A stretch of DNA of 38,730 nt from a virus: positions 1-38,730 of IMG/VR virus record IMGVR_UViG_3300003322_000567. One strand, given 5' to 3'. A model generated the notes under the pieces. The model was not told the origin of the DNA. It ran no database searches and worked only from the letters and a program-made list of their open reading frames with translations. Position numbers and translations under genes: made by a program. Below are positions 4,658 to 22,555 of this stretch, in pieces; positions within the stretch are counted from its first letter, which is position 1; each line of letters starts with the position of its first letter.

Positions 4658-5976
4658 AAACAAGCAATTTCATTCCATTTAATCGCTCCTCAGCGATGCA
4701 AATGATGACGCGCCGTATGCCGGGAGTACACCGTAAAGGCTTTGCGGCTTACAAAACAGACGGTGTAACTCTTGAAGAGCTTAGCGGCCAGGTTAAAGAG
4801 TTCAGCGAGCAAAACAAGAAAATTCTCAAAGATTACGAAGCAAGCCAGGCCGAGGTAATTCGCATTACCAAAGAATATAATGATAAGGTGGCTGAGCTCA
4901 ATAAAACGCTTGGTGAAAAAGATGCCACCTTACAAAAGATTCAGGGCGAAGTGGTGGAGCTTAACGCCAAGGCTGCCCGTAATCAATTCGGGGTGCAGGG
5001 CAATGCGCCTGAAACCGTGCATAGCCTTATCTCAAAAGCGTTTGAGGATAATGCCGCCGCCATCGCCAAGGCCAGCGCCGCAAATCCTGTGCAGCTTACA
5101 ACCGGCAAGCTGGAAAAGCAAACTGGATGGAAAGCAAAAGCTGCGGGTACTATTACCTTAGCCGCTAATGTTACCGGTAGCTATACAAACGTTGGCGTGC
5201 CTACGATTTCACCTGAGATCGCCACTCGTGGATATGACGAAACTCATTTCCGCGATATATTCCCGATCTTCGATAGTGCCACTGGTTCCTATGTTTTCTA
5301 CCGGAGCAAAACACCGACCGGTGAAGGCTCTATTACGAAACAAACACCAGGCGCGGCCAAATCGCAGAAAGATTATGACCTGGAAATTGCAAACGTGAGC
5401 GCTGATTATCTGGCAGGCTATGCCGATGTTGCAAAGCAGGCTCTCACGGATATCCCTATGCTGCAATCGTTCTTAACGAACGAGCTCATAGAGGATTACT
5501 TGGACACAGAGACTTTCAACATGTGGCAAGAAATGTTAGCCGCTATTACTGGCCCAACTCCCGCCGCTGGCGCTAATGCGATAGAAACCGCTATCAAAAC
5601 TATCGCTGCGATCCGCCAAACAAAGCGCAGGGTTAATTTCATGGTAGTACGTCCTGCTCTGTGGGCTAATATCATGATCACTAAGCCTAATGATTACAGC
5701 ATTCCCAACTCTGTAATCATTACTCCACAGGGCACCGTTGCAATCGTTGGCTTGCCAATGTATGTAACGGCCACCAACGCGCTGAGTGATACGAAATTCG
5801 TAATGGGGGATAATCGGCAAGCGGGTATCATGCAGGTTACAGGCGAAGGTCTGAAGCTCGAATTGTTTCAGCAGCATGATAAAGCAGTATATAACAACAT
5901 TCTCACCTGGCGCGTTGAAGCACGTGTAGCAATGCTCCTTCGCAGATTGGAAGCTTTTTCCTATGTCACAGCTTAA
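4654..5976 (+). CDS. Major capsid protein with N-terminal scaffold (delta) domain, HK97 fold
   Basis: This is a 440-aa HK97-fold capsid subunit. Residues about 38-112 are a heptad-rich coiled coil (EELSGQVKEFSEQNKKILK onward) corresponding to the cleavable delta/scaffold domain. The mature shell region follows, with typical stretches such as ISPEIATRGYDETHFRDIFP and a C-terminal LTWRVEARVAMLLRRLEAF. It directly follows the protease gene (ATGA overlap). Unusually, the next gene is not a head-tail connector but a glycosyltransferase whose ATG lies 14 bp inside the capsid 3' end, so translation of capsid and sugar cassette may be coupled. Confidence 0.92.
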   Translation: MKTSNFIPFNRSSAMQMMTRRMPGVHRKGFAAYKTDGVTLEELSGQVKEFSEQNKKILKDYEASQAEVIRITKEYNDKVAELNKTLGEKDATLQKIQGEVVELNAKAARNQFGVQGNAPETVHSLISKAFEDNAAAIAKASAANPVQLTTGKLEKQTGWKAKAAGTITLAANVTGSYTNVGVPTISPEIATRGYDETHFRDIFPIFDSATGSYVFYRSKTPTGEGSITKQTPGAAKSQKDYDLEIANVSADYLAGYADVAKQALTDIPMLQSFLTNELIEDYLDTETFNMWQEMLAAITGPTPAAGANAIETAIKTIAAIRQTKRRVNFMVVRPALWANIMITKPNDYSIPNSVIITPQGTVAIVGLPMYVTATNALSDTKFVMGDNRQAGIMQVTGEGLKLELFQQHDKAVYNNILTWRVEARVAMLLRRLEAFSYVTA

Positions 5977-6595
5977 CAGCTTTTTTCCTTTTAAGGTCTG
6001 CCTGAATCATCCCGCCGCCTCAAAACGGTGGGATGATTGTTTACAGGAGTTTAAGCGAGTGGGCTTAAACGGTGTTGTTCGCTTCGAGGCGCTACCCTCG
6101 ATCGGCCCTCATCAGTCATTCAATCTCTCGATGCGAACCATTCTGCAATATTTCGAGAGGAGTCCCTTTAACCGGCTCCTGATCCTCGAAGATGATGTAG
6201 TTTTCACGAAACTGGATCACATTGAGGCTGCATTACGAGAACTTCCCGAGGATTGGGATATTCTGTACCTTGGCGCTAATATCCTGCACCCCGAGCCGAA
6301 ACCAGAGGCTTACAGCCCTCATTTAGCTCGAATTTCTGCCGCTTGGTGCACTCACGCTATTGCTTTTAACAAAAAATGCGTAAATTGGCTCCTGCAACAC
6401 CAGCCAGGTCTTTCCGAACAAATGTTCGACAACTGGTTATCCGGGAACTTGGCCCGATTTAATTCGTACATAGTCTCACCTATGGCTGCTTATCAGCGGC
6501 CTGATCGAAGCCTGATTTGGGGCGAGCCTACCAACTATGATGCAATTTTCACCGGCAGCGATATAATATTAAAACACATATGCAAACACACCTAA
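5963..6595 (+). CDS. Glycosyltransferase, GT25-like
   Basis: This 210-aa protein resembles family 25 (LPS/LOS-type) glycosyltransferases. The N-terminus begins a short beta strand followed by an H-P-A-A-S-K-R-W stretch typical of this family. The metal/nucleotide-sugar motif LLILEDDVVF is at about residues 72-81, followed by DWDILYLGANI. A conserved-looking SAAWCTHAIAFNKK stretch near 129-142 fits the acceptor-side region. It starts inside the end of the capsid gene and overlaps the next GT gene by 16 bp. It is the first of several sugar genes in this cassette. Donor and acceptor are unknown; glycosylation of the capsid or of a host glycan are both possible. Confidence 0.82.
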   Translation: MSQLNSFFPFKVCLNHPAASKRWDDCLQEFKRVGLNGVVRFEALPSIGPHQSFNLSMRTILQYFERSPFNRLLILEDDVVFTKLDHIEAALRELPEDWDILYLGANILHPEPKPEAYSPHLARISAAWCTHAIAFNKKCVNWLLQHQPGLSEQMFDNWLSGNLARFNSYIVSPMAAYQRPDRSLIWGEPTNYDAIFTGSDIILKHICKHT

Positions 6596-7413
6596 TTTGC
6601 TATGCTGACGAGCAAATGTCTATCTCGCAGCAACTCTGCATTGCATCGGCTAAGGATAAAGGTAAGATAGATCATGTTTATTCCTTCGGCCCGAACTCTA
6701 TTGATAAGTTTTTTAGAGATCGCCACAAAAGCATTTTGGAAGCACCCCAACGAGGTGGCGGTAAAGGCTTTTGGCTGTGGAAACCCTATATTGTGGAGCA
6801 AGCTATACGAAATTTACCGGAAAAAGATGTGTTGATATACTGCGATAGCGGTGTCGAATGGTTGAAGCCGGCAAGTTGGTTGATTGAAAGAATGTGGAAT
6901 GAAGGGTATGAAGGTGAAAATGATGTTTTTCTTTTCTCAAATGGTCATCGGCATATTGATTGGTGTAAAGCCGAGGTTATTGCTTCAATGTTTAGAATAT
7001 ACCCAAAAGATATTAAACCTCACCTTATAATTAATAGGCAGGTACAAGCCTCCGTTATGCTATTTCGCATTAATGAGTATACCCGCGATTTCTGTGCCCG
7101 CTGGCTTGCCTGGTCTTGTATCCCCGGCTTTATCGATGATTCTTTTAATCCTGCTTTGCAATTAGATGAATTTCGTGAACACCGTAATGATCAAAGTATT
7201 TTAACCAATCTCGCCATTGAGGATGAGGTTCCATTACATTGGTGGCCTGCACAATACTGGCAAAGTAAAAAAGCCGATTTTCCAAGAGATAATTACCCTC
7301 AAATGTTTTACCATCATCGCCTAAGAAATGAAGAGTGGTATAATCAGTATGAGCAAGATATGCCGATTAACGAAATGCTAACAGATTTTAGTAAACGCTA
7401 TAAAAACATATAA
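6580..7413 (+). CDS. Putative glycosyltransferase (GT-A-like, WKP motif family)
   Basis: This 277-aa protein carries the pattern GGGKGFWLWKPYIV (about residues 59-72) followed by LIYCDSGVEW (about 85-94). I associate this pairing with a family of putative GT-A-fold glycosyltransferases common in surface-polysaccharide loci, where the D-x-G-like motif sits in the place of a DxD. The C-terminal half has many aromatic residues (MFYHHRLRNEEWYNQY). It overlaps the GT25-like gene upstream and is followed 3 bp later by a small unknown gene. The exact CAZy family is not assigned from memory. Confidence 0.7.
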   Translation: MQTHLICYADEQMSISQQLCIASAKDKGKIDHVYSFGPNSIDKFFRDRHKSILEAPQRGGGKGFWLWKPYIVEQAIRNLPEKDVLIYCDSGVEWLKPASWLIERMWNEGYEGENDVFLFSNGHRHIDWCKAEVIASMFRIYPKDIKPHLIINRQVQASVMLFRINEYTRDFCARWLAWSCIPGFIDDSFNPALQLDEFREHRNDQSILTNLAIEDEVPLHWWPAQYWQSKKADFPRDNYPQMFYHHRLRNEEWYNQYEQDMPINEMLTDFSKRYKNI

Positions 7414-7416
7414 GGT

Positions 7417-7764
7417 ATGAAGCAAGGTGTTTTAATCGTAGAGCCAAATCTTATTGCGCGGCCGGATGTCTTTGATGCTCTTTGCGATGCTTTTGAGATA
7501 ATCCGGCACTTAGAAATTGATCAATTTACACATGCCCTTATATGTGAGCATGAGCAATTCGATGAGGTAGCCGAGGGGGATTTTTTACCTTGCTACCATA
7601 TATCTCTTTCACGGCAAGATGATGCTTTTATAGTATCGGGAATAAGCCAACCATTTATTAACCAAAATATCGCTTTAAAATGTCAAAGGAAAAAGGAAAC
7701 AAACTCAAACCAAGTGGACAGGGAAGCCAATCAGGAAAACCTGATTTGGATGCCGGAGCAATAG
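7417..7764 (+). CDS. Small protein of unknown function in the sugar cassette
   Basis: This 115-aa frame runs from an ATG at 7417 to a TAG at 7762-7764. Residues 1-88 look like a folded alpha/beta domain (MKQGVLIVEPNLIARP at the start). The last 27 residues are read in a different frame over the first 85 bp of the methyltransferase gene, and their Q/N/K-rich composition looks unselected. A TTTAAAA heptamer in the correct phase at 7674-7680 could produce a -1 fusion to the downstream gene (reported separately). Function is unknown; its neighbours suggest a role in glycan synthesis. Confidence 0.6.
   Translation: MKQGVLIVEPNLIARPDVFDALCDAFEIIRHLEIDQFTHALICEHEQFDEVAEGDFLPCYHISLSRQDDAFIVSGISQPFINQNIALKCQRKKETNSNQVDREANQENLIWMPEQ
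7674..7680 (+). other. Possible -1 frameshift heptamer T TTA AAA
   Basis: The heptamer TTTAAAA is read as T-TTA-AAA in the frame of the 7417 gene, which is the canonical X-XXY-YYZ phase. After a -1 slip the next codon would be the ATG at 7680, so the 88-residue upstream domain would fuse to the whole 249-aa downstream protein. The alternative is simple re-initiation at that ATG. No downstream stimulatory structure was identified by eye. Confidence 0.3.
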
Positions 7765-8429
7765 GCATTCCTAAGAACGGTGCCGCCGATACCGGTACTG
7801 CTTCGCCTCGCAATGTTGAAAAAGTGTACGCCAATGATAAAGCCATAGCAATGGAACGTTGGCTACAGGCTCAGAAAGCAGAACGTGAGCAACATACTAT
7901 GAGCCCGATTGAAGGTATGATCCATTACGGCAAGGCATACCGTCATTATTTTAAGTTTGTTGGCCTCGGGCAAGATTTACATGGACTTAATGTGATAGAG
8001 GTGGGGCCAGCGGATTTCCCGGCTTTGGCACATTGTAAAAATTGGGGTACTGCGATCATCGTGGAACCTATGCCTTCCGAGATATTAGAGAATACCTGCA
8101 AAGAACAAAATATTACTCTTGTTACAAAGCCATTTGAGGATTGTATTCCCCTCGACTTCGGCGCTTGGGAAGGTACTACTGAGGTATGGCTCTTTAACGT
8201 GCTTCAGCATGTTATTGACCCTAATTTGTTTATAGGCGTTGCCAAAACTTTCGCTGATCGTATACGCTTCTTCGAACCAATTGATCAGCCTATTACGGAG
8301 TATCACCCTCATAGCTATTCGCTTAAGGATTTCCAAAGCTGGTTTGGCCAGGTGAATCTATATGCCGGTAAATCGGTTGAAGGATTTCATGAGGCTGATT
8401 GTGTTTATGGACTGTGGCAAAAAGAATAG
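7680..8429 (+). CDS. Class I SAM-dependent methyltransferase-like protein
   Basis: This is a 249-aa protein. Residues 1-75 are polar and low-complexity, then a Rossmann-type methyltransferase core follows. Motif I is LNVIEVGPADFPAL (about residues 103-116), a strand IIVEPMP (about 126-132) supplies the acidic residue after beta-2, and the VWLFNVLQHVIDP segment (about 169-181) resembles the motif IV region of Methyltransf_23-like enzymes. It lies within the glycosyltransferase cassette, so O-methylation of a sugar is a reasonable but unproven role. The ATG at 7680 overlaps the upstream frame by 85 bp. A 207-bp gene-free interval with two strong hairpins follows. Confidence 0.68.
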   Translation: MSKEKGNKLKPSGQGSQSGKPDLDAGAIGIPKNGAADTGTASPRNVEKVYANDKAIAMERWLQAQKAEREQHTMSPIEGMIHYGKAYRHYFKFVGLGQDLHGLNVIEVGPADFPALAHCKNWGTAIIVEPMPSEILENTCKEQNITLVTKPFEDCIPLDFGAWEGTTEVWLFNVLQHVIDPNLFIGVAKTFADRIRFFEPIDQPITEYHPHSYSLKDFQSWFGQVNLYAGKSVEGFHEADCVYGLWQKE

Positions 8430-8437
8430 AAATAAAG

Positions 8438-8465
8438 AGAGGGAGCTTAAGACTAAGTTCCCTCT
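8438..8465 (+). other. Strong 12-bp hairpin downstream of the methyltransferase gene
   Basis: Arms 8438-8449 (AGAGGGAGCTTA) and 8454-8465 (TAAGTTCCCTCT) pair over 12 bp with one G-T wobble and an AGAC tetraloop. There is no T-run after it on the + strand. On the - strand the hairpin is followed by a U-rich tail (CTTTATTTC). It begins 9 bp after the methyltransferase stop. It could protect the 3' end of the upstream transcript, act as a weak terminator, or terminate antisense transcription. Confidence 0.6.
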
Positions 8466-8501
8466 ACCCCTAAATCCTATGAAAAATTAATGGACTGCAA
8501 T

Positions 8502-8535
8502 ATAAAAAGAAAACCCGACACTAAAAAGCGTCGGG
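8502..8535 (-). terminator. Terminator-like hairpin directed on the minus strand
   Basis: CCCGAC at 8514-8519 pairs with GTCGGG at 8530-8535, with one further C-G pair after a mismatch. Read on the - strand, the stem is followed by TTTTCTTTTT (8513 down to 8504), the form of an intrinsic terminator. On the + strand the A-run precedes the stem and there is no U-tract after it. No convincing minus-strand gene exists nearby, so the target would be antisense transcription or an unannotated RNA. Confidence 0.45.
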
Positions 8536-8636
8536 GGGTCGGCAAAATAAAGATATCTACGCATCAGGCTTAACTCAACCTCTGCATGGCCGCAATATAC
8601 GCGCTTTTCTATTCCTAACAAATATAATTTATAAAT

Positions 8637-9452
8637 ATGTGTACTCGACGAGGTTACGCGACTTTCTCGGCCCTTGGCCGATATGGGCGCTTTGCCAATC
8701 AGGTATTTCAGATCGCTGGAACGATTGGCATAGCGCGCAGGAACCAATTACAGCCAGTTTTCCCGATTTGGCGTAATTATGATCACGGGGAAAGATTCGG
8801 CAGCCGTGAGGATATTAACGTATTTGAGCACATGGTTAATCCATTATCTGCTCTTCCAGTTTCCACCATAGTTAGCGGCAATTGGCAGAGCTTACCGGTT
8901 GAATGGGGGTATCATGATGTAAATCTCCTGCCCGGTAATTGGGATATTTCCGGGCACCTGCAAAGTTATAAGTACTTCGCTCATTGTATTGATGAGGTAC
9001 GGCACTATATGCGGATGAAGCAAGAGGATAAGGCAATTTGGCCTTTTTGCGCTATCCACGCCAGGCGAGGGGATTATGATAATAAATACCATCCGGTAAT
9101 ACCGGTTTACTGGTACATTGAAGCAATTAAGCAATTCCCCACTAATACGAAGTTTTTCGTATTCAGCGATCATAAGCCGTTTGTGAGCGAGCTTGCTGAT
9201 ATGTGTGAGATTCACGGGCTAATGAGGCAGGCCAATAACCTGGTGCCCGTGTTCAAGAATTACCTTGATTCCTTTGCGGTAATGAAACGTTGTGAGCACT
9301 TCATTATTGGTAATAGCTCTTATAGTGCTGCCGCTGCCATGTTATCGGAAAGCCCGGATAAGCAGGTAATAGCTCCGGCAAACTGGTTTGGTGAAGCCTA
9401 CGCGGGTATTAATGGCAAAGACATCTATTGCGATAACTGGAAAATAATGTAA
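8637..9452 (+). CDS. Glycosyltransferase family 11 (alpha-1,2-fucosyltransferase-like)
   Basis: This 271-aa protein fits GT11, enzymes that transfer fucose from GDP-fucose. The family blocks are visible in order: GRYGRFANQVFQIAG (residues about 13-27, the GxxGNQxFQ block), IHARRGDY (about 140-147, the HxRRGDY donor-binding motif), FFVFSDHKPF (about 173-182) and HFIIGNSSYSAAAAML (about 221-236, the NSTFSWWaA-type block). Length is typical. It follows a 207-bp interval with two hairpins and is followed after 1 bp by a 53-aa gene. No GDP-fucose synthesis gene is present here, so the donor would come from the host. Confidence 0.85.
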   Translation: MCTRRGYATFSALGRYGRFANQVFQIAGTIGIARRNQLQPVFPIWRNYDHGERFGSREDINVFEHMVNPLSALPVSTIVSGNWQSLPVEWGYHDVNLLPGNWDISGHLQSYKYFAHCIDEVRHYMRMKQEDKAIWPFCAIHARRGDYDNKYHPVIPVYWYIEAIKQFPTNTKFFVFSDHKPFVSELADMCEIHGLMRQANNLVPVFKNYLDSFAVMKRCEHFIIGNSSYSAAAAMLSESPDKQVIAPANWFGEAYAGINGKDIYCDNWKIM

Positions 9453-9453
9453 G

Positions 9454-9615
9454 ATGCAGCAAGTTAAAATATTTAAGAGCTCCAATATTACTTTATTAGA
9501 GCAAAACATTAATGATTTTTTAGTGTATTGCTCTAATAAAAATTATCAAATAGTTGATATAAAATATGCTATCGCTTATGCAGGTATGAGCTCAGCTTTA
9601 ATTATCTATAAATAA
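9454..9615 (+). CDS. Small Cse60-like protein (53 aa)
   Basis: The ATG at 9454 follows the fucosyltransferase stop by one base and opens 53 codons ending at TAA 9613-9615. The sequence MQQVKIFKSSN, a central acidic/helical stretch, then YQIVDIKYAIAY and a C-terminal SALIIYK match the layout of the small Cse60-type family. That family has a beta strand, a helix, an I-x-D-I-K-Y strand and an A-L-I-x-Y end, and is also found in phages and non-sporulating bacteria. The family role is unknown. Its start and stop fit neatly between two sugar genes, supporting expression. Confidence 0.65.
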   Translation: MQQVKIFKSSNITLLEQNINDFLVYCSNKNYQIVDIKYAIAYAGMSSALIIYK

Positions 9616-9622
9616 TAGCCCT

Positions 9623-10663
9623 ATGCGAATAATGTGGAGCATCCATTTATATCCCCCTTACCATAATTGTGGTGCTGAGTATGTAGCGCATCACGTTAAT
9701 AAATACCTGCTCTCAAAAGGCCATGAGGTAAGAGTACTTAATTTACAAAGTAAAGGCGATCATTATACTTTCGAAGGAGTGGATGTTATTACTAATATAA
9801 AGAGCTTTGACCCCTTTCATTGGCCTGATGTCATTCTCACTCACCTGGATTTTACGAAGTATACGATGAACGTGGCAAGGGTAATGAAAAAGCCGGTTGT
9901 TCATTTCGTTCATAATAGCTCCAAATATCCGGAAATAGCGGAAGCGAACAATAAGCAATATGTAGTTTATAATGCAAAATGGATTAGAGATGCGTTGAAT
10001 TACTCACACCAGTCAATGGTTCTTTACCCACCTTGCCCGATGGGTCATTATAAACTCGAAATGGAACCCATCAACAATGAGCATATCACATTGATAAACC
10101 TTAATGAGAATAAAGGAGGGCTCATTTTGCTAAAACTGGCCAAGACAATGCCCGATTATAAATTTTTAGGTGTAATCGGCTCATACGACGATGGAGGTAT
10201 GCAGCCTGCGATAGTTGATGAGTTGAGAGCTCAGCCCAATGTGACTGTGGTGGATCACTCAAGTGATGTAAAAGCAATTTATCGAAAAACTAGAATTTTA
10301 TTAGTACCTTCGCGTTACGAGAGTTGGGGCCGAGTAGCAACCGAGGCAATGATCAACGGGATACCGGTTATTGCCTGCCCCACGCAGGGCTTACTTGAGA
10401 ATTGCCAACACGGTGCCCTTTTCGTAAATCCTCGCGGCGAAAAAACTACAGACATCTACGGCGACATCACCTCTCACGATGGAAATAGCTATGACATTTC
10501 CCTATTTAAGTACTTCATTAAATCGCTAGACGATCCAAACGAGTACCTTAAACGTTCGCAATTAGGCATACTCAGAGCTCAGGAGCTCGAAACGGAATAT
10601 CAAGAGCAAATAATACAGCTTGAAAAATTTCTCTATTATGCGAAACAGGATTATAAAAATTGA
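9623..10663 (+). CDS. Glycosyltransferase family 4
   Basis: This is a 346-aa retaining GT-B glycosyltransferase. The N-terminal domain opens with a strand and an acceptor-side P-Y-H-N-x-G-A-E loop (about residues 12-19). The C-terminal nucleotide-sugar domain has LINLNENKGG (about 157-166) and the E-x7-E motif ESWGRVATEA (E233 and E241), followed by INGIPVIACPTQG, all characteristic of GT4. It is the last sugar gene. Its 3' end overlaps the connector gene by 26 bp, so the cassette re-joins the structural operon without a gap. The donor sugar cannot be assigned. Confidence 0.88.
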   Translation: MRIMWSIHLYPPYHNCGAEYVAHHVNKYLLSKGHEVRVLNLQSKGDHYTFEGVDVITNIKSFDPFHWPDVILTHLDFTKYTMNVARVMKKPVVHFVHNSSKYPEIAEANNKQYVVYNAKWIRDALNYSHQSMVLYPPCPMGHYKLEMEPINNEHITLINLNENKGGLILLKLAKTMPDYKFLGVIGSYDDGGMQPAIVDELRAQPNVTVVDHSSDVKAIYRKTRILLVPSRYESWGRVATEAMINGIPVIACPTQGLLENCQHGALFVNPRGEKTTDIYGDITSHDGNSYDISLFKYFIKSLDDPNEYLKRSQLGILRAQELETEYQEQIIQLEKFLYYAKQDYKN

Positions 10664-13698: not shown

Positions 13699-15714
13699 AT
13701 GCCAAATTTTGAAATCGAGGTTGGTGGGAATATAGCACCAATCACCCGCGCCCTACAAGACCTAAAGAGCGATCTTAAGGGCTTCAAGGGCGAACTTGAG
13801 CGCTCAACCGATCCTCTAAGCGTTGCAAAGCTTAATGCGGAGATTAAAAAAACGGAAGATGAGATAAAGCGCATTAAAGGAGTTGGGCCTATTATAGGCT
13901 CTCCTGCCGTTAAAGGCGTAGACCAGGCAGCCAACTCGCTCACCAATATGAGCAGGGTAATACAAGATGCGCCTTTCGGTTTTATCGCCATTCAAAATAA
14001 CCTCAACCCATTGCTCGAATCATTCCAGCGGCTAAAAGCTGAGACAGGTTCTAATGCAGGAGCATTAAAAGCGCTTGGCTCGGTTCTCGGCGGGGCCGGT
14101 GGTGTTGGGATAGGCTTATCGGTTGTTAGCGGTTTGGTAACTGTGGCAATTCAGAAGTACGGCTCGTTAGGTAATGCCGTTGATGCTTTATTTGGGAGTT
14201 TATCAAAAGCTGCACAAGCCCAAAGGGATGTTGCCGAAACTTTCGCAGCGGCAAGCGGCAAAGCGGGTGGAGAGATTGCAAATATCCAGGCATTGCTGAC
14301 CGTTGCCCGTGATGAAACTCTATCCCGTAGTGCTAGAGCAGAAGCGATAAATAAACTGAATAAGGAATATGATGGGTACTTACCTAAGCTAACGCAAGAG
14401 AATATAAGTACCAAAGAAGTAACTGAGTCGATAAATAAATTAACGGCTTCGCTCATACGACAAGCCAAAATTAAAGGGCTACAAGACCTAATAAGCAAAG
14501 AAACCGCAAAGCAGGCAGAGCTAATGGCCCATTCGTTGGGCGAGAATGCGAACTGGTGGGATAACATCGTTGCCGCAGCAAAAAGTTTTGGGCCTGCCGG
14601 TAACTTTTTTAATGAGCAGACCATACTAGGAGCTAAGCGCACAGCTTCAGAGTTTCAGGATGCATCCGATAGGATTGCCACTTTCCAAAAGTTCTTAAAC
14701 GAGCTAACAAAAGAAGAAGCAGTCAACGGAACGTTATTTGATGAGACCAAACTTAAGAAAGGCGAGGATTTATTAAAGAAACGCCTGGAAGCTCTTGAAA
14801 AGATCAAAAAGGAAACGAAAGACACAACCGCGCTCGTCGGGATAGAGGAAGCTATATTCGAAGTAAAAGTAAAAATAGCTATCCGGGATGATAAAAAACG
14901 GTTAAGTAAAACCGAATTTGATCAATTATTACTTGGCTTTCAGGAGGATTTGAATAAGGCTTTTTTAAATCAGGCTATTTCTTTTGAAGCAATACCAAAA
15001 GTAAAATTCTCACCGGTTGCACTAGCCGAGATACCCAAAGAAATAACTGATAAAGTTAGTAAGGCTACCGGTAATGAAAAGATAACTGTAACCTTGCATG
15101 ATGCCAGAGTATTGATCCTCGGGCGTAAGGTAACGGCTCAGATAGAAGGTAAGGAAGCGATAAATAAGAAATTATCCGAAGAGATCAATGGGGCTTTAGA
15201 AGGGCTGCAAGTTGATTTAACGGCTTCTTTTGGTGAAGCATTGGGCGAAGCCTTCAGCAATGCAATACAGGGTAATGATCTCGGTGATGGACTTCGCAAT
15301 GCAGCTAAGCAGATGCTTTCCATTCTCGGCTCAGTTATGCAGCAAATAGGCCGTTATGTTATTGCAGCGGCTATAAAGATACAATTGCTAAAGAAAACCC
15401 TTGAACAATGGGCGGTAGCTAATCCGGCGCTTGCGATCCTTGCCGGTGTGGGCTTGATCGCAGCCGGAGCCGCTCTCAAGAATGCTACGTTCCAAGGGCC
15501 GAAATTCGCGCAGGGGGGTATTGTGACAGGCCCCACAATAGGCTTAATAGGAGAAGCTGGAAAAGAGGCTATAATACCGCTTAATAAGTTACCTGGTCTT
15601 ATTGGCCAAACCGGAGGTACTACGGTTGTACTCAATAGCAGATTAGGTATAGATGGACGTACCCTTGTAGCATTTATCGAAAAAGAAACCACCCGTTTTA
15701 ATCGCGTCAGATAA
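13699..15714 (+). CDS. Tape measure protein
   Basis: This 671-aa protein sets tail length and is threaded through the tube. The N-terminal 50 residues form a coiled coil, followed by a hydrophobic glycine-rich segment (about 130-155), long helical stretches and a second hydrophobic segment (about 570-592). The C-terminus has the widely conserved tape-measure signature AQGGIVTGPTIGLIGEAGKE (about 604-623), then IIPLNKLP. It starts directly after the chaperone fusion stop and ends in a TAATG overlap with the next tail gene. At 671 aa it predicts a fairly short siphovirus tail, on the order of 100 nm by the usual 1.5 Å per residue rule. Confidence 0.92.
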   Translation: MPNFEIEVGGNIAPITRALQDLKSDLKGFKGELERSTDPLSVAKLNAEIKKTEDEIKRIKGVGPIIGSPAVKGVDQAANSLTNMSRVIQDAPFGFIAIQNNLNPLLESFQRLKAETGSNAGALKALGSVLGGAGGVGIGLSVVSGLVTVAIQKYGSLGNAVDALFGSLSKAAQAQRDVAETFAAASGKAGGEIANIQALLTVARDETLSRSARAEAINKLNKEYDGYLPKLTQENISTKEVTESINKLTASLIRQAKIKGLQDLISKETAKQAELMAHSLGENANWWDNIVAAAKSFGPAGNFFNEQTILGAKRTASEFQDASDRIATFQKFLNELTKEEAVNGTLFDETKLKKGEDLLKKRLEALEKIKKETKDTTALVGIEEAIFEVKVKIAIRDDKKRLSKTEFDQLLLGFQEDLNKAFLNQAISFEAIPKVKFSPVALAEIPKEITDKVSKATGNEKITVTLHDARVLILGRKVTAQIEGKEAINKKLSEEINGALEGLQVDLTASFGEALGEAFSNAIQGNDLGDGLRNAAKQMLSILGSVMQQIGRYVIAAAIKIQLLKKTLEQWAVANPALAILAGVGLIAAGAALKNATFQGPKFAQGGIVTGPTIGLIGEAGKEAIIPLNKLPGLIGQTGGTTVVLNSRLGIDGRTLVAFIEKETTRFNRVR

Positions 15715-17774
15715 TGGCATACCACTTAACGCATACCATCAATTTTAATAGCCCTGTTACTGAGCAAATCAGGATAGAAATGTATCGAAAGGATATTGTG
15801 CCCGTTAGCGTAATAGAGCTTACAGGCACTTATGCGCGTAAACAGACTCTTTCGGGTGACGGCAATGGGGCTGATACAATTCTATCAACGGAACTGGTAT
15901 TTGGGATATTCATAAGGGAAAGCACAGGCGTTGATTTTGATGATTTCATTGTATCATTCCATGATGAGTGGAAAGTTATTTTGTATAGCGATAATCAAAT
16001 CGAGTTTGTCGGCTTTTTAACTCCTAACGAAGGCTCAAGCGACGTGATAGGTATTAGAAAAGATATTGATCTTTCGGCTACCGATAACCTAGGTTTAATT
16101 AAAAAGGCCGATCTAAAACGGTATGATGGCACCTCTTTCTTACATCGGGTTGACCGCATTATAGATTATATTGCAGGAGCCCTCGCTCAGACAGGTTTGC
16201 AGCTTAATATCGTAGTCTATTCAAACATATATGATGACGTGGCTGTAGATCGTAATGCGGTTAATACAAATGATACCTTTAACAAATACAGGCTTGACTA
16301 TCGCACATTTCAGATTGATGCACTCACCTTCATGAAGTCTAATACCGTTCTTGAGAATATTTTGAGAGAAGGGTATACGTTGGAGCAATTTAACGGGAAA
16401 TGGGTGATTATGCGAATTGGTGAAATGCAAGGTACGGAAGGGCCAAAGATTTGGTGTACCGAATATGATTATACGGGAGCTATTATCTCGGCTCAATTGG
16501 TAACTAACGATGCAGCGATTATCGATAAACAGCAAACCCTTCATCCGATAAATGCTGACCTTAGAATATCATCCAATTACTCAGTTAAAAGTGCTAAACA
16601 TACTTATAATTATACGCCCTGGCCAGAAATACCGCTTAATAATACATTCGAGCGAGGTACATTAATTCCAGGTGTGGGCAACCCTGACCAAAAGGCTTAT
16701 ACAATCGACGATTGGACTTTTGGCGTATGGAACCCGAATCTATCATCCGGCCCTGGATCAAGCCCTTTCAATTTAGCACCTACAACCGATCTTGCTTACC
16801 GGCTTTCCACTTATAACATATATGGAGTTGAGACAGCCCGGCAAATTACGCTTGATTCACATTACAATGATCCGCAGCCAGGCCATCGCTTATTAAGATG
16901 CAGCCAATTCCCGGTTAAAGCAGGCGATCGGGTAGATATAAATTTTGATTTCAAGCGTGACCCTGGCGGAAATGGCACAATGAATTATATGCTAATTGCC
17001 ATAGATACCGGAACTTTGCCCCGCTATACTTTGGACAATAATAATCCTAACGATGGAGGTAAACCGTTCTTTTGGAAGCATGGGGGAGGTACAAACTTTG
17101 TTAGTAAATTTTATCAGGGGGAGGACTGGCAAGATTGGACAAGCATTCAGGTAGAATGCCCTCCCGCTCCCGCTGATGGGCAGTTCTTTATCTTCTTCTT
17201 AAATTATGATTCTGCATTTACGGCGGCGCAGTATAGAAATTTTGAGGTGACCTATCACCCATTTGTTGCGGGCGGCTATGTTGAAGCGAAAGGGGATTAT
17301 TGGAACACTTCACAGAATACCGCTTACTTAGATGATATAGATGAAGAAGTATTTATCTCCGATTCGGAGATAAAAGTACTTAAAGGAGCCATCCTAAAAG
17401 ATGATGGGGTAACGCTCACAACTCGAACATGGTTTCGGCTTAATGTAAACGAAAGCAAAGGCTTTAAGGAGCTTATCAACATAGCAAGATATAATCAAAG
17501 CTATCGACGAATGTGGGAACTCTCAGGCACAATCGGTGGCATTGGTTATTACCCAGTAAATAACCAGGCTATCAGGATGCCGCTTTCCTTTCATAAACAT
17601 TTTAAATTTACGGGCATTCCCAAACTAGCAGGAGTAATCTTTCAGCTTGTACCTCCTTTAACGGTTGATTACTCAGAAGGAGAGATAAAAGCGAATTTTA
17701 GAGAAAGCTGGCGACCCGGGGCAGGCGATGGCGATCAGCTTGGTAATATTCATGAGTTTAAATACAAATTTTAA
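15714..17774 (+). CDS. Tail-tip / distal tail hub protein
   Basis: This is a 686-aa structural protein just after the tape measure. It begins with a beta-rich domain (FNSPVTEQIRIEMYRKDIVP, about residues 11-30), contains an EFVGFLTPNEG strand near residue 98 and a domain from about 300 on that carries jelly-roll-like strands. It is very probably the distal tail or hub protein that joins tube and fibres in Bacteroidota siphoviruses. I do not recognise a catalytic domain. The TAATG overlap with the tape measure gene supports coupled expression. Confidence 0.7.
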   Translation: MAYHLTHTINFNSPVTEQIRIEMYRKDIVPVSVIELTGTYARKQTLSGDGNGADTILSTELVFGIFIRESTGVDFDDFIVSFHDEWKVILYSDNQIEFVGFLTPNEGSSDVIGIRKDIDLSATDNLGLIKKADLKRYDGTSFLHRVDRIIDYIAGALAQTGLQLNIVVYSNIYDDVAVDRNAVNTNDTFNKYRLDYRTFQIDALTFMKSNTVLENILREGYTLEQFNGKWVIMRIGEMQGTEGPKIWCTEYDYTGAIISAQLVTNDAAIIDKQQTLHPINADLRISSNYSVKSAKHTYNYTPWPEIPLNNTFERGTLIPGVGNPDQKAYTIDDWTFGVWNPNLSSGPGSSPFNLAPTTDLAYRLSTYNIYGVETARQITLDSHYNDPQPGHRLLRCSQFPVKAGDRVDINFDFKRDPGGNGTMNYMLIAIDTGTLPRYTLDNNNPNDGGKPFFWKHGGGTNFVSKFYQGEDWQDWTSIQVECPPAPADGQFFIFFLNYDSAFTAAQYRNFEVTYHPFVAGGYVEAKGDYWNTSQNTAYLDDIDEEVFISDSEIKVLKGAILKDDGVTLTTRTWFRLNVNESKGFKELINIARYNQSYRRMWELSGTIGGIGYYPVNNQAIRMPLSFHKHFKFTGIPKLAGVIFQLVPPLTVDYSEGEIKANFRESWRPGAGDGDQLGNIHEFKYKF

Positions 17775-17775
17775 T

Positions 17776-19140
17776 ATGCCTCTTATACAATCAAATAAAT
17801 GCCTTTTTCAAATACTAGTTGACAATGACTGGTTAACAGTTATGTGCCTACGAAGTTTCAAGATAAGTCCCGCAACAACTGAAAAAGAGATTACGGCTCC
17901 GGTAGATGGGAAATTTAAGTCATTTGACTATAAACAACTATCTTATCGGGCTTCTCTAGACGGAGTAGCCTTCCGGGAAATTACAGGTAATACCCTATTT
18001 GATTTTGCAGATGCGCAACTTAATTTCCTTGAGCTTAATTTTCGTGCTGTTTTTCAAGATGAAAGCGGTAACTATAAAATTTTCAATGGTCAGGCCATAG
18101 TAATGGAAAGCGATTTCGAAGCCAGCGCAGGTAGTGTGGCTTCGGGTACTGTAGAACTATTAGGCACAGGAGAGTACACAATTACAAATGACTTACCACA
18201 ATTTGTTAATTTGCGCATTCGCATTTATAATGACCCAACGGCGCAAGCCTTTTTAAAACTATGGTTAATTGATTCTACTGGGAGCCCGGTATTCCAAACC
18301 GACGTGTTGCCGCAGGCCAATGGCGGGCAACTCTCTAATCCACTTGATGTAACCATATCCATACCTAAAGGGCTATGGTACTATTGGTTTCAGGTGGATA
18401 CAAACGACATCGGCAATCAATTTAACCTAAATGCGCCCCCAACGAAATCAAGCAATTTTAATAATGGCATATATAATGAAACCTCAAACGGTATTCAACT
18501 TTATGATTTTACCGCTGACCGGGAGGTTTCAATCGCACTCGGCATAACTAACCCACCACCGACTTGTGTGGCTCCAGCGATCCAATCGGGTATAGTTTCA
18601 CCAAACGGCACAGTAGGAACTTATTATTCCCGTACGGTAGTTCTGAGTGGTTCGCAACCATTCACGGTTTCAAATGTAGTTAAACCTGCATGGATGAGTA
18701 TAAGCATTGCAGGTAATATAATTACTTTAAGCGGAAATCCTACGGTAGGAGTGAACCAAACCGTATCTTTTGACGTGACTAATGCATGCGGAAGTACTTC
18801 GTATGTTGATTCTATTGATATCGCGCCGGGTTCTTCGAATGTCGTGGTGAACTATAGCTACCTGGAAAGTCCGAGCAATTCATCCTATTTCACTATCTAT
18901 GTTAATTCAGTTCTTGCTGTTAGTTCATCTTCACCTATAAGTGGTACTTTAACGATAAACACCCTTGATGTGGTTGAGGCCTTTGTCGGGGGTGCTGCAT
19001 TAGTAGTTAAGCATTTGGATATACAGGATAGCATTGCAGGTGAATTGTTTAACCAGACAAGCGGAAGCACTTACATAAACGGATCATTTACGGCACAATT
19101 CGGACATACTTACACTATAAATGGTAATGGTCATGTATAA
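17776..19140 (+). CDS. Tail protein with tube-like N-terminal domain and Ig-like domain
   Basis: This is a 454-aa product using the ATG at 17776, one base after the previous stop; an in-frame ATG at 17728 would overlap the upstream gene by 47 bp. Residues about 1-135 resemble the tail tube protein in strand order and end in [14 protein letters not shown] Gly/Asn/Thr-rich region follows, then an Ig-like domain of the putative-Ig type, with a C-x-A-P-A entry near residue 273 and a [15 protein letters not shown] strand. The last 80 residues are beta-rich. Probably a baseplate or tip protein involved in surface binding. Confidence 0.65.
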
Positions 19141-19150
19141 AATCAAAAAC

Positions 19151-22100
19151 ATGAAAAAGTTAATTTCTTTTTTGGCTCTTTTAATCTGCATAAATGTGCA
19201 GGCACAATGGACGGGCACCGATTCGTTAAGGAATTTTAATAACCGGTTCATTACTAATAATGCGAGCGCAGCCTTCACTAATTTGCGATTACATAACTTA
19301 CTGGGAGGCATAATTGATTATATAGATACGGCCTTAAATGGTGGCAGTTCAGTCGCGCTCGGAGTTGATACTATTTACGTAACTGCCGACTCAGTAATTC
19401 ACTACAAAAAGAACGGTGTATTCCATCAGTTCATTGTAAGAGGTAACGTTGGGGCCGGGAGATTGTACGAAGTGCCTTTTAGTGATGGGGCAGGCCGTTT
19501 CAGTCGGGATAGTAATTTTACTTACGATAAGAGCCAAGGCGCAGATGCCGGAAGATTAATTATAGGCCCAACCGGGGTTAATAGCGGTGGCTTATCCAAA
19601 ATCAATGCCACGAGCGATAACATGAATGCCTTAGCCCTTACGAGCTATGGCACTGGTTTAAATACGATCATCTTCAGGCGAGCTTTAGGGACGGTTGGGC
19701 TACCTCTAGCTCTTACTAGCGGCAAAGACCTTTGGAACTTCAGCGGCAGAGGATATACTGGCACAGTATTTAGCAATAGCCAAGCCGCAATATATGCTCA
19801 AACCTCACAAGATTGGACAGATTCAACGAAAGGAACACGGATATACTTTAGCACTACTCCAAATGATAGCGCCGTAATGCGAACAAGAGTAGTATTTGAT
19901 CATGATGGTAGTGTAGGTATTAATGATGACACTCCGGAGTTCGGACTTAAAATTAACCGATCAGTTGGAGCCAATAAAGATAGCGTGCCGTTTACCGCGA
20001 TTTCAACGGCGCAAGCCTTATTAATTGATACAGCCACCGGAAAATTTTACAGAGGCTTTTCGAGTGGTTCCGGTGGCGGGATATCTTGGATTTATTCGGG
20101 AACTGCACCTACCGGTAGCGATACTTCTAAAATATGGATCAAAACACCGGCAATAGCGGGAGTTTATGACGTATATCAATATGCTACTTATCAATTTAGT
20201 TGGGTTCGTTATGGATGGATAACTATTGACGGCTTTTTCTCTCAGTTACCACCTGTTAACGTCGTAATAGCAGGCCAAAGCAATGCCGGAGGTATTTACC
20301 CAGGCGGAGACACGGCAAGAGTTAACGGAATATTAGGATATACTACAGGATCGCAGAACACGGGGATTGATGCCCCGACACATTGGGAGCAAGCGGCTAT
20401 TGGTAAATCGCCCTTTTATATGAATAACAATAATATGGCATTCGCTTTTGCAAAACAGTTGCGATTAAATGATAAGCGAATTGTTCGTATAGTTGCAACC
20501 TATCAGGGAGGCATACCCTTAAGTGCATGGTTATGCGGTAGCCCGCATTATTTATTGGACACTCTACGTAATAGGTTATCGCGTTCAGGGATTGATACCA
20601 TTCACGCTTTTTTATGGCATCACGGCGAGGCTGGGGGTTGCACAGGCAACTTATCAGGAGGCTATTATAAAGATATGGCTGATTTCTACGACACGCTTTG
20701 TATTAATACAAATGGGTTCTATAGAAATGTAACACAATTTATTGCTGGTGAACTAGGGGGTACGGATGCAGCGGATAGAAATACTCAATGGCCTTTCACA
20801 AATCCAAACGGGGCAATAAGGAAAATGAATTCCGACGGAAATATTAACACGGCTTCGATCCCTTCTTATAGTTTATCTCGTTGCGATGCAACTCACTTTT
20901 GCGCAACTGCACTCGACACAATGGGTATACGCATGTATGGGGCATTTAAAGAAATGCCGCATACGATCGCTTATGAAATGAGACAACTAAGAGGTAATTT
21001 TGATACCGCTTATGAGAAATTAAAATACGATGAAAGCGATTTTTTACAGCCTGCTTCCGGAGGTGGTTATTTGTATAAGTATTATAATACATCATTTGCG
21101 TGGAATATTAACGGTTTAAACACTTTAGCTATTAACAATGATGGAAGTGTTGGAATAGATAATGCGCAATCTATGTCTGGGACAAATACCAATGCCAGCC
21201 TTAAAGTTAATGGGAGAATGGCAGTTGCTGATGGAACTAATACCACGATTGCCACAAATTTTAATCCTGATGTATCAGGTGGTGGGTATCAAAGAAATAC
21301 TATAATTTCAAATTATACTAGTAATTGGACTACTTCTTCACCGAATGCAGATAACGTATTTATAGGCCCTAATGCTGGATTAGTAAGTAGTGGTAGAATG
21401 TCAAATAATTCCGTATTTATAGGATCGGGGGCGGGGGAAGGCCATACACCGGCAGGTTCAGGAGACTACAACATCGGGATTGGTAAAGACCCGCTGAAAA
21501 ATAGCGTATGCGCATGGTGTGTAGTTGTTGGTGGCTTGTCGGGGCAAAATATGTATGGCGGCGGTATCTCGCTTGTCGGACATGCCATTTCTGTTCCATC
21601 TGGAATTAGCAACGTATCTGCATTGGGATATAATGCGAATGTTGATAGCAATAACCAAGTAGTGCTTGGTGATACAAATCAAGTCCAGTTAAAGGTAGCA
21701 AAACTCAGGTTTAAACTAAACACAACACCAACTAACGGCGATACATGGGTGTACGATGCAGCTACCAGCGAATTTAAACCGCAAGCAGCTATTGATAATA
21801 GTATTGCAACTGGCTCTCGTACTGCAACCGGAAACTATACGCAAGACTGGAATCATAAGCAGTTAACGTTTAATAACATTAATCAATGGTCGTTTAACGT
21901 AAAAGAAACGGAAACTACTTTTGGAACAAGAAAATTAAGACACGCATTTTACACTACAGGCAGCGCATACGGGCAACCAATGAGCCTGTATAGCGCTCTT
22001 AGAAATGTTGCAGATAATGCCGATAGTATAATAATTGGATTCAGAAATTACTATGGCGGCTCAAGGCATTATACAGGTTTAATAGCAGCAGATGCCAATG

Positions 22101-22555
22101 GGCAGGGTTTAGTTGAACTGTCATTGGATATGGCCAAAATGAGCGTTGACCCAACCGGGAATAACATAACGGTGTATAAAGATTCAATATTACTCAAAGG
22201 GGCCGAACCAACCACTTCAGCGGATAGCGTATTTGCAGCAGGGCCAAGGCTTTCAGATGGATCAACTAAGGTATTAATGATCCCCACGGTGAAAGTTTTA
22301 AAAGGTACACTATCATGGACGCCAGGAACAATAGGGGCCGGAAGCAGTACAACTACGACGGTAACTATAACAGGTGCAGCAGTTGGCGATGCAGTTATTA
22401 TTTCTACATCTGACGGCGCAGGCTTAGCAAATGGGGAAGTGTATGATGGCGTTGTTTCGTCAACCAATACGGTAACCGTTCGAGCTAATAACTTCAGTAC
22501 AGGATCGGGTGTAATAGGAGCAAGAACTTATAATATAGTGGTGATTAAATATTAA
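19151..22555 (+). CDS. Tail fibre with SGNH/SASA-type carbohydrate esterase domain and YadA-like head repeats
   Basis: This is a 1134-aa fibre. From the ATG at 19151 it opens with a Sec signal-like peptide, [19 protein letters not shown]; ATGs at 19121-19133 are alternatives that overlap the previous gene. The middle carries an SGNH hydrolase of the sialate O-acetylesterase/CE6-like type: [11 protein letters not shown] with nucleophile S377, WHHGEAGG near 490, and the D-x-x-H pair DATH at 579-582. After it, about residues 735-850, repeats of the form VFIGPNAG and [10 protein letters not shown] resemble trimeric YadA-like head repeats. Likely role: bind and deacetylate a surface polysaccharide. 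The last gene of the tail block. Confidence 0.8.

Follow-up and report, generated by a model that had tools for sequence, protein, structure and literature searches.

In well-studied tailed phages, the tail fibres are made and attached to the particle in the cytoplasm. The locus described here raises the question of how a protein encoded in the place of a tail fibre comes to begin with a Sec signal peptide, and where such a protein would join the particle. The window, i.e., the whole stretch of DNA that was analyzed, comprises 38,730 bases of the virus record IMGVR_UViG_3300003322_000567. The gene in question occupies positions 19151-22555 on the + strand and encodes 1134 residues; an earlier note, made from the letters of the window, had described this open reading frame as a tail fibre with a signal-like peptide, an SGNH esterase, and YadA-like repeats, and the reading frame proved to be real.

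Gene neighbourhood and start of the fibre

The gene order of the window begins with a terminase piece, followed by the portal, a head morphogenesis protein, a prohead protease, the capsid, and a block with glycosyltransferase genes. It continues with head-tail connector genes, the tape measure protein, two tail proteins, and the fibre, and it closes with small membrane proteins, an endolysin, and replication genes. The three genes that lead up to the fibre are as follows:

13699..15714, + strand, candidate tape measure protein (phrog_30292, E 6e-47; phrog_25337, tape measure; match to Flavobacterium phage 11b)
15714..17774, + strand, candidate distal tail protein (homologues at the same place in the relatives L002 and L007; phrog_33803)
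17728..19140, + strand, tail gene before the fibre (phrog_1407, major tail protein, E 3.5e-9)

The fibre starts 11 bases past the stop of the last of these genes, whose homologue in L002 (54% identity) lies directly 5' of the L002 fibre. In the window and in both relatives, L002 (IMGVR_UViG_3300003322_000545, fibre of 1147 residues) and L007 (IMGVR_UViG_3300024055_000001, fibre of 976 residues), the fibre gene is placed between tail genes before it and lysis genes after it. The portal of the window matches mostly Cellulophaga phages. The window phage is a siphophage whose relatives infect Bacteroidota, and the sequence matches of its tape measure and portal point to a host in the same phylum. 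Among the scanned open reading frames of the window, which include many small ones without assignment, neither an integrase nor a repressor was recognized, and the reading of the fibre as a lysogenic-conversion gene is disfavoured for this reason.

The reading frame of the fibre is already open from 19121, upstream of the ATG at 19151. In L007, the equivalent ATG is preceded by no other and shares bases with the stop codon of the gene before it, which makes a longer start impossible there; thus, 19151 is the likely start codon, and a start further upstream was ruled out from the gene arrangement of L007.

Domain architecture and modular exchange

The following features were delineated along the fibre gene:

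19151..19204, + strand, Sec leader, residues 1-18, with a predicted signal peptidase I cut at A18/Q19 (leader scan with control; the L002 and L007 leaders also end in AQ)
19205..19570, + strand, mature N-terminus, residues 19-140, likely tail-docking domain (alignment; conserved in all three phages)
19586..19966, + strand, trimeric-fibre domain, residues 146-272, with similarity to tail-fibre families and to the MAT fibre Bd1334 of Bdellovibrio
20264..20944, + strand, SGNH/SASA carbohydrate esterase domain, residues 372-598 (Pfam PF03629)
21356..21700, + strand, possible YadA-like beta-roll repeats, residues 736-850 (motif count against shuffles; weak)
22283..22549, + strand, conserved C-terminal tip, residues 1045-1133 (73% and 50% identity; common to all three fibres)

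The middle of the fibre is very likely a SASA-type esterase, as judged from its sequence. Residues 372-598 match nearly the full PF03629 profile with E = 6e-10 and 39.6 bits against a gathering cut-off of 24.8, and they contain the catalytic motifs GQSN at 375 (S376), WHHGE at 489, and DATH at 579 (D579/H582), by which the full set of SGNH/SASA motifs described in the earlier note is borne out. Matches of this domain to the PDB entries 2apj and 1zmb are weak. Residues 146-272 match 8oml (phmmer E 1.8e-7; profile E 3.7e-8) and, weakly, phrog_9942, a tail fiber family (E 1.5e-4). AlphaFold2 models reached a pLDDT of 33 for the N-terminal part and of 30 for the SASA domain, for which only two sequences were available, and these values are too low for the models to be of use.

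The YadA-like repeats that had been proposed for the distal part stand in part: the motif N-x-V-x-[IVL]-G occurs three times within residues 736-850, where shuffled sequences would give 0.5 (P about 0.01), but no Pfam family matches residues 715-880 even at E = 5, and the YadA anchor domain of Pfam matches nowhere along the fibre, which leaves the assignment weak overall. A trimeric fibre with YadA-like repeats is plausible. The mature fibre has seven cysteines (residues 462, 497, 517, 578, 584, 787, and 790), five of which are located in the SASA domain; disulfides between them, if formed, would fit with folding in the periplasm.

Comparison of the three phages revealed which parts of the fibre are exchanged. 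The L002 and L007 fibres are 67% identical to the window fibre over about 250 N-terminal residues, and all three also have the last 90 residues or so in common. The middle of the L002 fibre displays a weak pectate-lyase-like (beta-helix) similarity (E 0.0014, under the Pfam cut-off), and that of the L007 fibre contains a different SASA domain (E = 1.5e-21), which is 28% identical to the one in the window. At the level of sequence, conserved ends around a swapped middle are the usual build of a modular receptor-binding fibre. The tail-fibre identity claimed in the earlier note is supported by the position behind the tail genes, by the modular exchange, and by the similarity to fibre domains; in this uncultured phage, the protein would be expected in the virion, with residues 19-140 possibly acting in docking to the tail. 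Among annotated phages, no relatives of the whole fibre or of its C-terminal tip were found.

Quality and conservation of the leader

In the window, L002, and L007, the leader has a positively charged n-region and a hydrophobic core free of charges; the residues at -3 and -1 are small, Gln occupies +1, and all three leaders end A/Q, as in the Q-rule of Bacteroidetes; one of the three aligned leaders reads MKKLILSLLLLTVVSTSKA/QF, where the slash marks the cut. On average, Gln is exposed in about 71% of the signal peptidase I substrates of Bacteroidetes (PMC5837995), and the exposed Gln is converted to pyroglutamate, which raises protein stability (PMC10653852). The leader of the window fibre is the most hydrophobic N-terminal segment among the listed open reading frames of the window above 210 aa. 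With the leader test used here, which is a heuristic and not SignalP, a Q-leader was passed by chance in 4 of 3252 internal Met pseudo-starts (about 1 in 800) and in 13 of 12080 shuffled N-termini (about 1 in 900). The Sec signal noticed earlier at the best start is thus genuine and above the chance rate, and it is as odd as had been remarked for a virion assembled in the cytoplasm.

Identity among the three leaders amounts to 44-50%, compared with 69-72% in residues 19-245, and the synonymous sites between the fibre genes are saturated (pS 0.73-0.85). When neutral drift was simulated with 1.5 changes per site, a leader was kept in 1-2% of the runs and a Q-leader in 0.05% or less. Since an unconstrained leader would be lost at such saturated synonymous divergence, the leader is taken to be under constraint, and the three leaders seem to have been selected to function with the Sec system of the host. 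No type IX C-terminal sorting domain was detected in the fibre by Pfam or NCBIfam, its C-terminus being the conserved tip; a role as type IX secretion cargo was rejected on this ground, and export would therefore end in the periplasm.

Leader-bearing fibres in other phages

Cellulophaga phages provide the closest view of such leaders on proteins recorded as parts of virions. In phi10:1 (L100 21848-28879), five consecutive fibre/spike genes, gp91-95, each encode a Q-rule Sec leader, and the GenBank notes of gp91, gp92, gp93 (pectate lyase), and gp94 (tail fibre) cite experimental MS/MS proteomics. The proteins gp101-103 of phi19:1 likewise have both Q-rule leaders and MS/MS notes, and gp104 has an MS/MS note and a leader without Gln. 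A leader is hence present in all eight of these proteins (phi10:1 gp91-94 and phi19:1 gp101-104) and conforms to the Q-rule in seven, with virion presence resting on the GenBank notes and not on peptides. According to these record notes, leader-bearing fibre proteins are found in the virions of other phages; exported proteins could also co-purify with particles inside vesicles. Across seven phages (phi10:1, phi19:1, phi13:2, phi19:3, phi46:3, Nekkels_1, and Ingeline_1), 25 of 25 proteins have a leader and 23 have the Gln, in a set that was gathered by homology and whose members are not independent cases. The earlier note had held that its reading would fail if the virion protein started further upstream; this alternative, and likewise that of a protein outside the virion, is weakened by the recurrence of leader-bearing fibres, MS/MS-noted in two isolates.

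In the Cellulophaga siphophages and myophages, Q-rule leaders occur on whole fibre modules. The podoviruses phi17:2 and phi14:2, of which the latter is crAss-like, contain the same pectate-lyase body (44-49%) in leaderless form and with other N-termini; conversely, Nekkels_1 gp54 shares residues 1-132 with phi10:1 gp93 at 95.5% and does not share the body. It follows that the leader moves with the N-terminal module and not with the enzyme. The pectate-lyase body was observed with a leader in siphophages and myophages and without one in podoviruses (L110 and L111 versus L100 24101-26434), and leader use may follow tail type.

A wider survey covered 80 IMG/VR loci around endolysin relatives, in which every open reading frame was scanned for leaders. 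Just 5' of the endolysin relatives, a Q-leader was present in 2 of the 21 open reading frames of at least 600 aa, both from close relatives of the window; the remaining leader-bearing frames lie on shorter contigs, are themselves shorter, or are located elsewhere in the locus, and fibre leaders are thus a minority trait. These cases include unrelated fibre-like proteins with Q-leaders, encoded independently at the place of the fibre, namely one of 981 aa behind a tail-collar-like gene (L050), one of 918 aa with a stretch akin to the minor tail or tail fibre proteins of many phages (L052), and others in L048 and L022. A domain with the N-terminal motif KPSxMSxATxxAFK follows a Sec leader in L048:5033-6001 and is leaderless in L055:6901-8574. 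Leaderless fibres also occur in the Bacteroidota phages 11b, phi12:1, B124-14, lillamy, tant, P2559Y, and RAP44. In L066, L068, and L078, the Q-leader test picked out glycine-rich proteins and a 211-aa protein distant from fibres; these hits are probably false or unrelated and were not used. Furthermore, two head-region proteins of about 350 aa (L022:8548-9603 and L079:3561-4622), which are possibly capsid-related, were observed to have a leader-like hydrophobic start (MKNFITKSLFLLVVTMLIA...).

Proposed mechanism and rival explanations

We consider a receptor-binding fibre that is exported and cleaved, trimerizes in the periplasm, and docks late to be the best explanation of the locus, and on balance a probable one. 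Against it count the cytoplasmic attachment of fibres in known tailed phages and the leaderless fibres of other Bacteroidota phages, which do without a signal. Its first three elements have support: the fibre is translated behind a Sec leader, this leader is under selection, and comparable leader-bearing fibres are recorded as virion proteins. What the locus itself displays is the leader, its retention as a leader, the SASA domain, and the swapping of the catalytic region between phages. As a functional signal, the leader would then carry the chain across the inner membrane, where signal peptidase I would cleave between A18 and Q19 and a glutaminyl cyclase of the host would probably convert Gln19 to pyroglutamate. 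The mature chain would trimerize in the periplasm, and the conserved residues 19-140 would dock the fibre on the tail tip, either in that compartment or at lysis; this late docking is throughout what we infer. When the particle meets a new host cell, its SASA domain would deacetylate a surface polysaccharide, the presumed substrate, letting the particle bind or get through.

A true leader combined with an esterase would also suit the main rival reading, a non-virion enzyme, which is exported to trim the surface glycans of its own host, freeing progeny or blocking re-infection in the manner of a receptor-destroying enzyme. Such a role has parallels, since Q-rule proteins of P. gingivalis phages are proposed as outer-membrane modifiers (PMC10367356) and Bdellovibrio exports phage-fibre-like MAT proteins via signal peptides (PMC10769870). 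We regard it as unlikely for the window protein, whose gene lies directly behind the tail genes and whose N- and C-terminal fibre modules are conserved around a swapped enzyme; moreover, the leader-bearing fibre proteins of phi10:1 and phi19:1 are noted as virion proteins, and Pfam and NCBIfam detected neither an outer-membrane nor a type IX secretion signal.

Ordinary cytoplasmic assembly, with which the MS/MS notes also agree, would be preserved if the leader were hydrophobic but unused, the fibre folding in the cytoplasm and the segment either becoming enclosed in the tail tip or being removed during assembly by a protease of the phage. The retention of the positive n-region, the charge-free h-region, and the A/Q cut while most leader residues changed makes this quite improbable, as does the Gln at +1, the signature of Bacteroidetes signal peptidase I, which recurs in nearly all of the Cellulophaga fibre-module leaders (23/25). 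The MAT-like domain, which is also present in a bacterial exported fibre, might suggest that the phage captured the gene from a bacterium, in which it encoded a surface adhesin or an esterase, and that the leader is a relic. This origin is highly improbable: an unconstrained leader would have decayed according to the neutral simulation, one N-terminal module carries three different enzymes in three phages, and that module was absent from two scans of bacterial contigs, which reached close relatives only.

The exported, late-docking fibre may be generalized, tentatively and with slightly less than even confidence, to a class of Bacteroidota tailed phages with two-compartment virions. In these, the head and tail would be built in the cytoplasm, and the fibres or spikes would reach the periplasm through Sec and be processed there by signal peptidase I and probably by glutaminyl cyclase, to dock during or after lysis; the leader would be part of the N-terminal docking module and be swapped together with it. 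If the fibre does leave the cytoplasm first, host range, the timing of lysis, and the assembly of particles would be linked differently, the enzyme could act on the envelope of the producing cell ahead of release, and co-infecting phages could exchange fibres at lysis. As a practical rule, a Bacteroidota phage gene with a signal peptide may still encode a virion fibre.

Relation to known systems

As in the window, the genes for fibres or spikes in the Cellulophaga modules lie between those for the tail and for lysis, and their products have modular N-termini, Sec leaders mostly with Gln at +1, and carbohydrate-active bodies. They differ in that their sequences show no detectable resemblance to that of the window fibre, that a pectate lyase takes the place of SASA, and that several genes, not just one, encode a leader; the GenBank record notes examined make no mention of their leaders. 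The SASA family of Pfam (PF03629; sialate/carbohydrate O-acetylesterases of the SGNH superfamily) shares with the window domain a score above gathering and the GQSN, W-x-x-GE, and D-x-x-H motifs, whereas the window domain is a predicted one embedded in a long phage fibre. An SGNH enzyme on a Bacteroidota phage tail fibre is also represented by gp06 of Cellulophaga phi46:1, which is noted as a virion part but is leaderless and belongs to GDSL families of Pfam and not to SASA.

Bdellovibrio is known to export fibre-like proteins (PMC10769870). Its MAT proteins (8OML; 8ON4 = Bd1334) resemble the window protein in being phage-fibre-like, in their signal peptide, and in a domain related to window residues 146-272; however, they are bacterial proteins for predation, whereas the window protein is encoded in a phage tail operon and contains an esterase. 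A MAT protein is recognized by a beta-rich domain of about 130 aa directly after the signal peptide in a gene of a predatory bacterium, an arrangement that the window fibre does not have, and its match is to the C-terminal half of Bd1334. The P. gingivalis phage proteins (PMC10367356) are, like the window fibre, phage-encoded Q-rule Sec substrates in Bacteroidota; unlike it, they have no assigned function and are read as host-envelope modifiers, not as tail fibres. The target proteins of phage DGRs have been surveyed and are reported to lack signal peptides (PMC6199706). No description of Sec-exported virion fibres was found in the open-licence full-text papers searched, and one may exist in other literature. 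The fibre of the window is itself a new member, and its class looks like a new variation on tail-fibre biology.

Glycosyltransferase cassette

The cassette at 5963-10663 is composed of GT11-like and GT4-like genes plus four open reading frames. Its order and its place between the capsid and the connector genes are conserved in all three phages (the window, L115, and L116). Its four larger members are 58-73% identical (GT11-like, 70-71%; GT4-like, 67%; the other two, 59-73%), and the connector gene behind it is less conserved, at 37-40%. From the combination of glycan-building genes with the fibre esterase, the earlier note had proposed a modification of the receptor from both sides. This proposal is not supported: the cassette is conserved in three phages whose fibres carry three different enzymes and is therefore not tied to the esterase. 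The cassette would be as likely to glycosylate the particle as to change the receptor.
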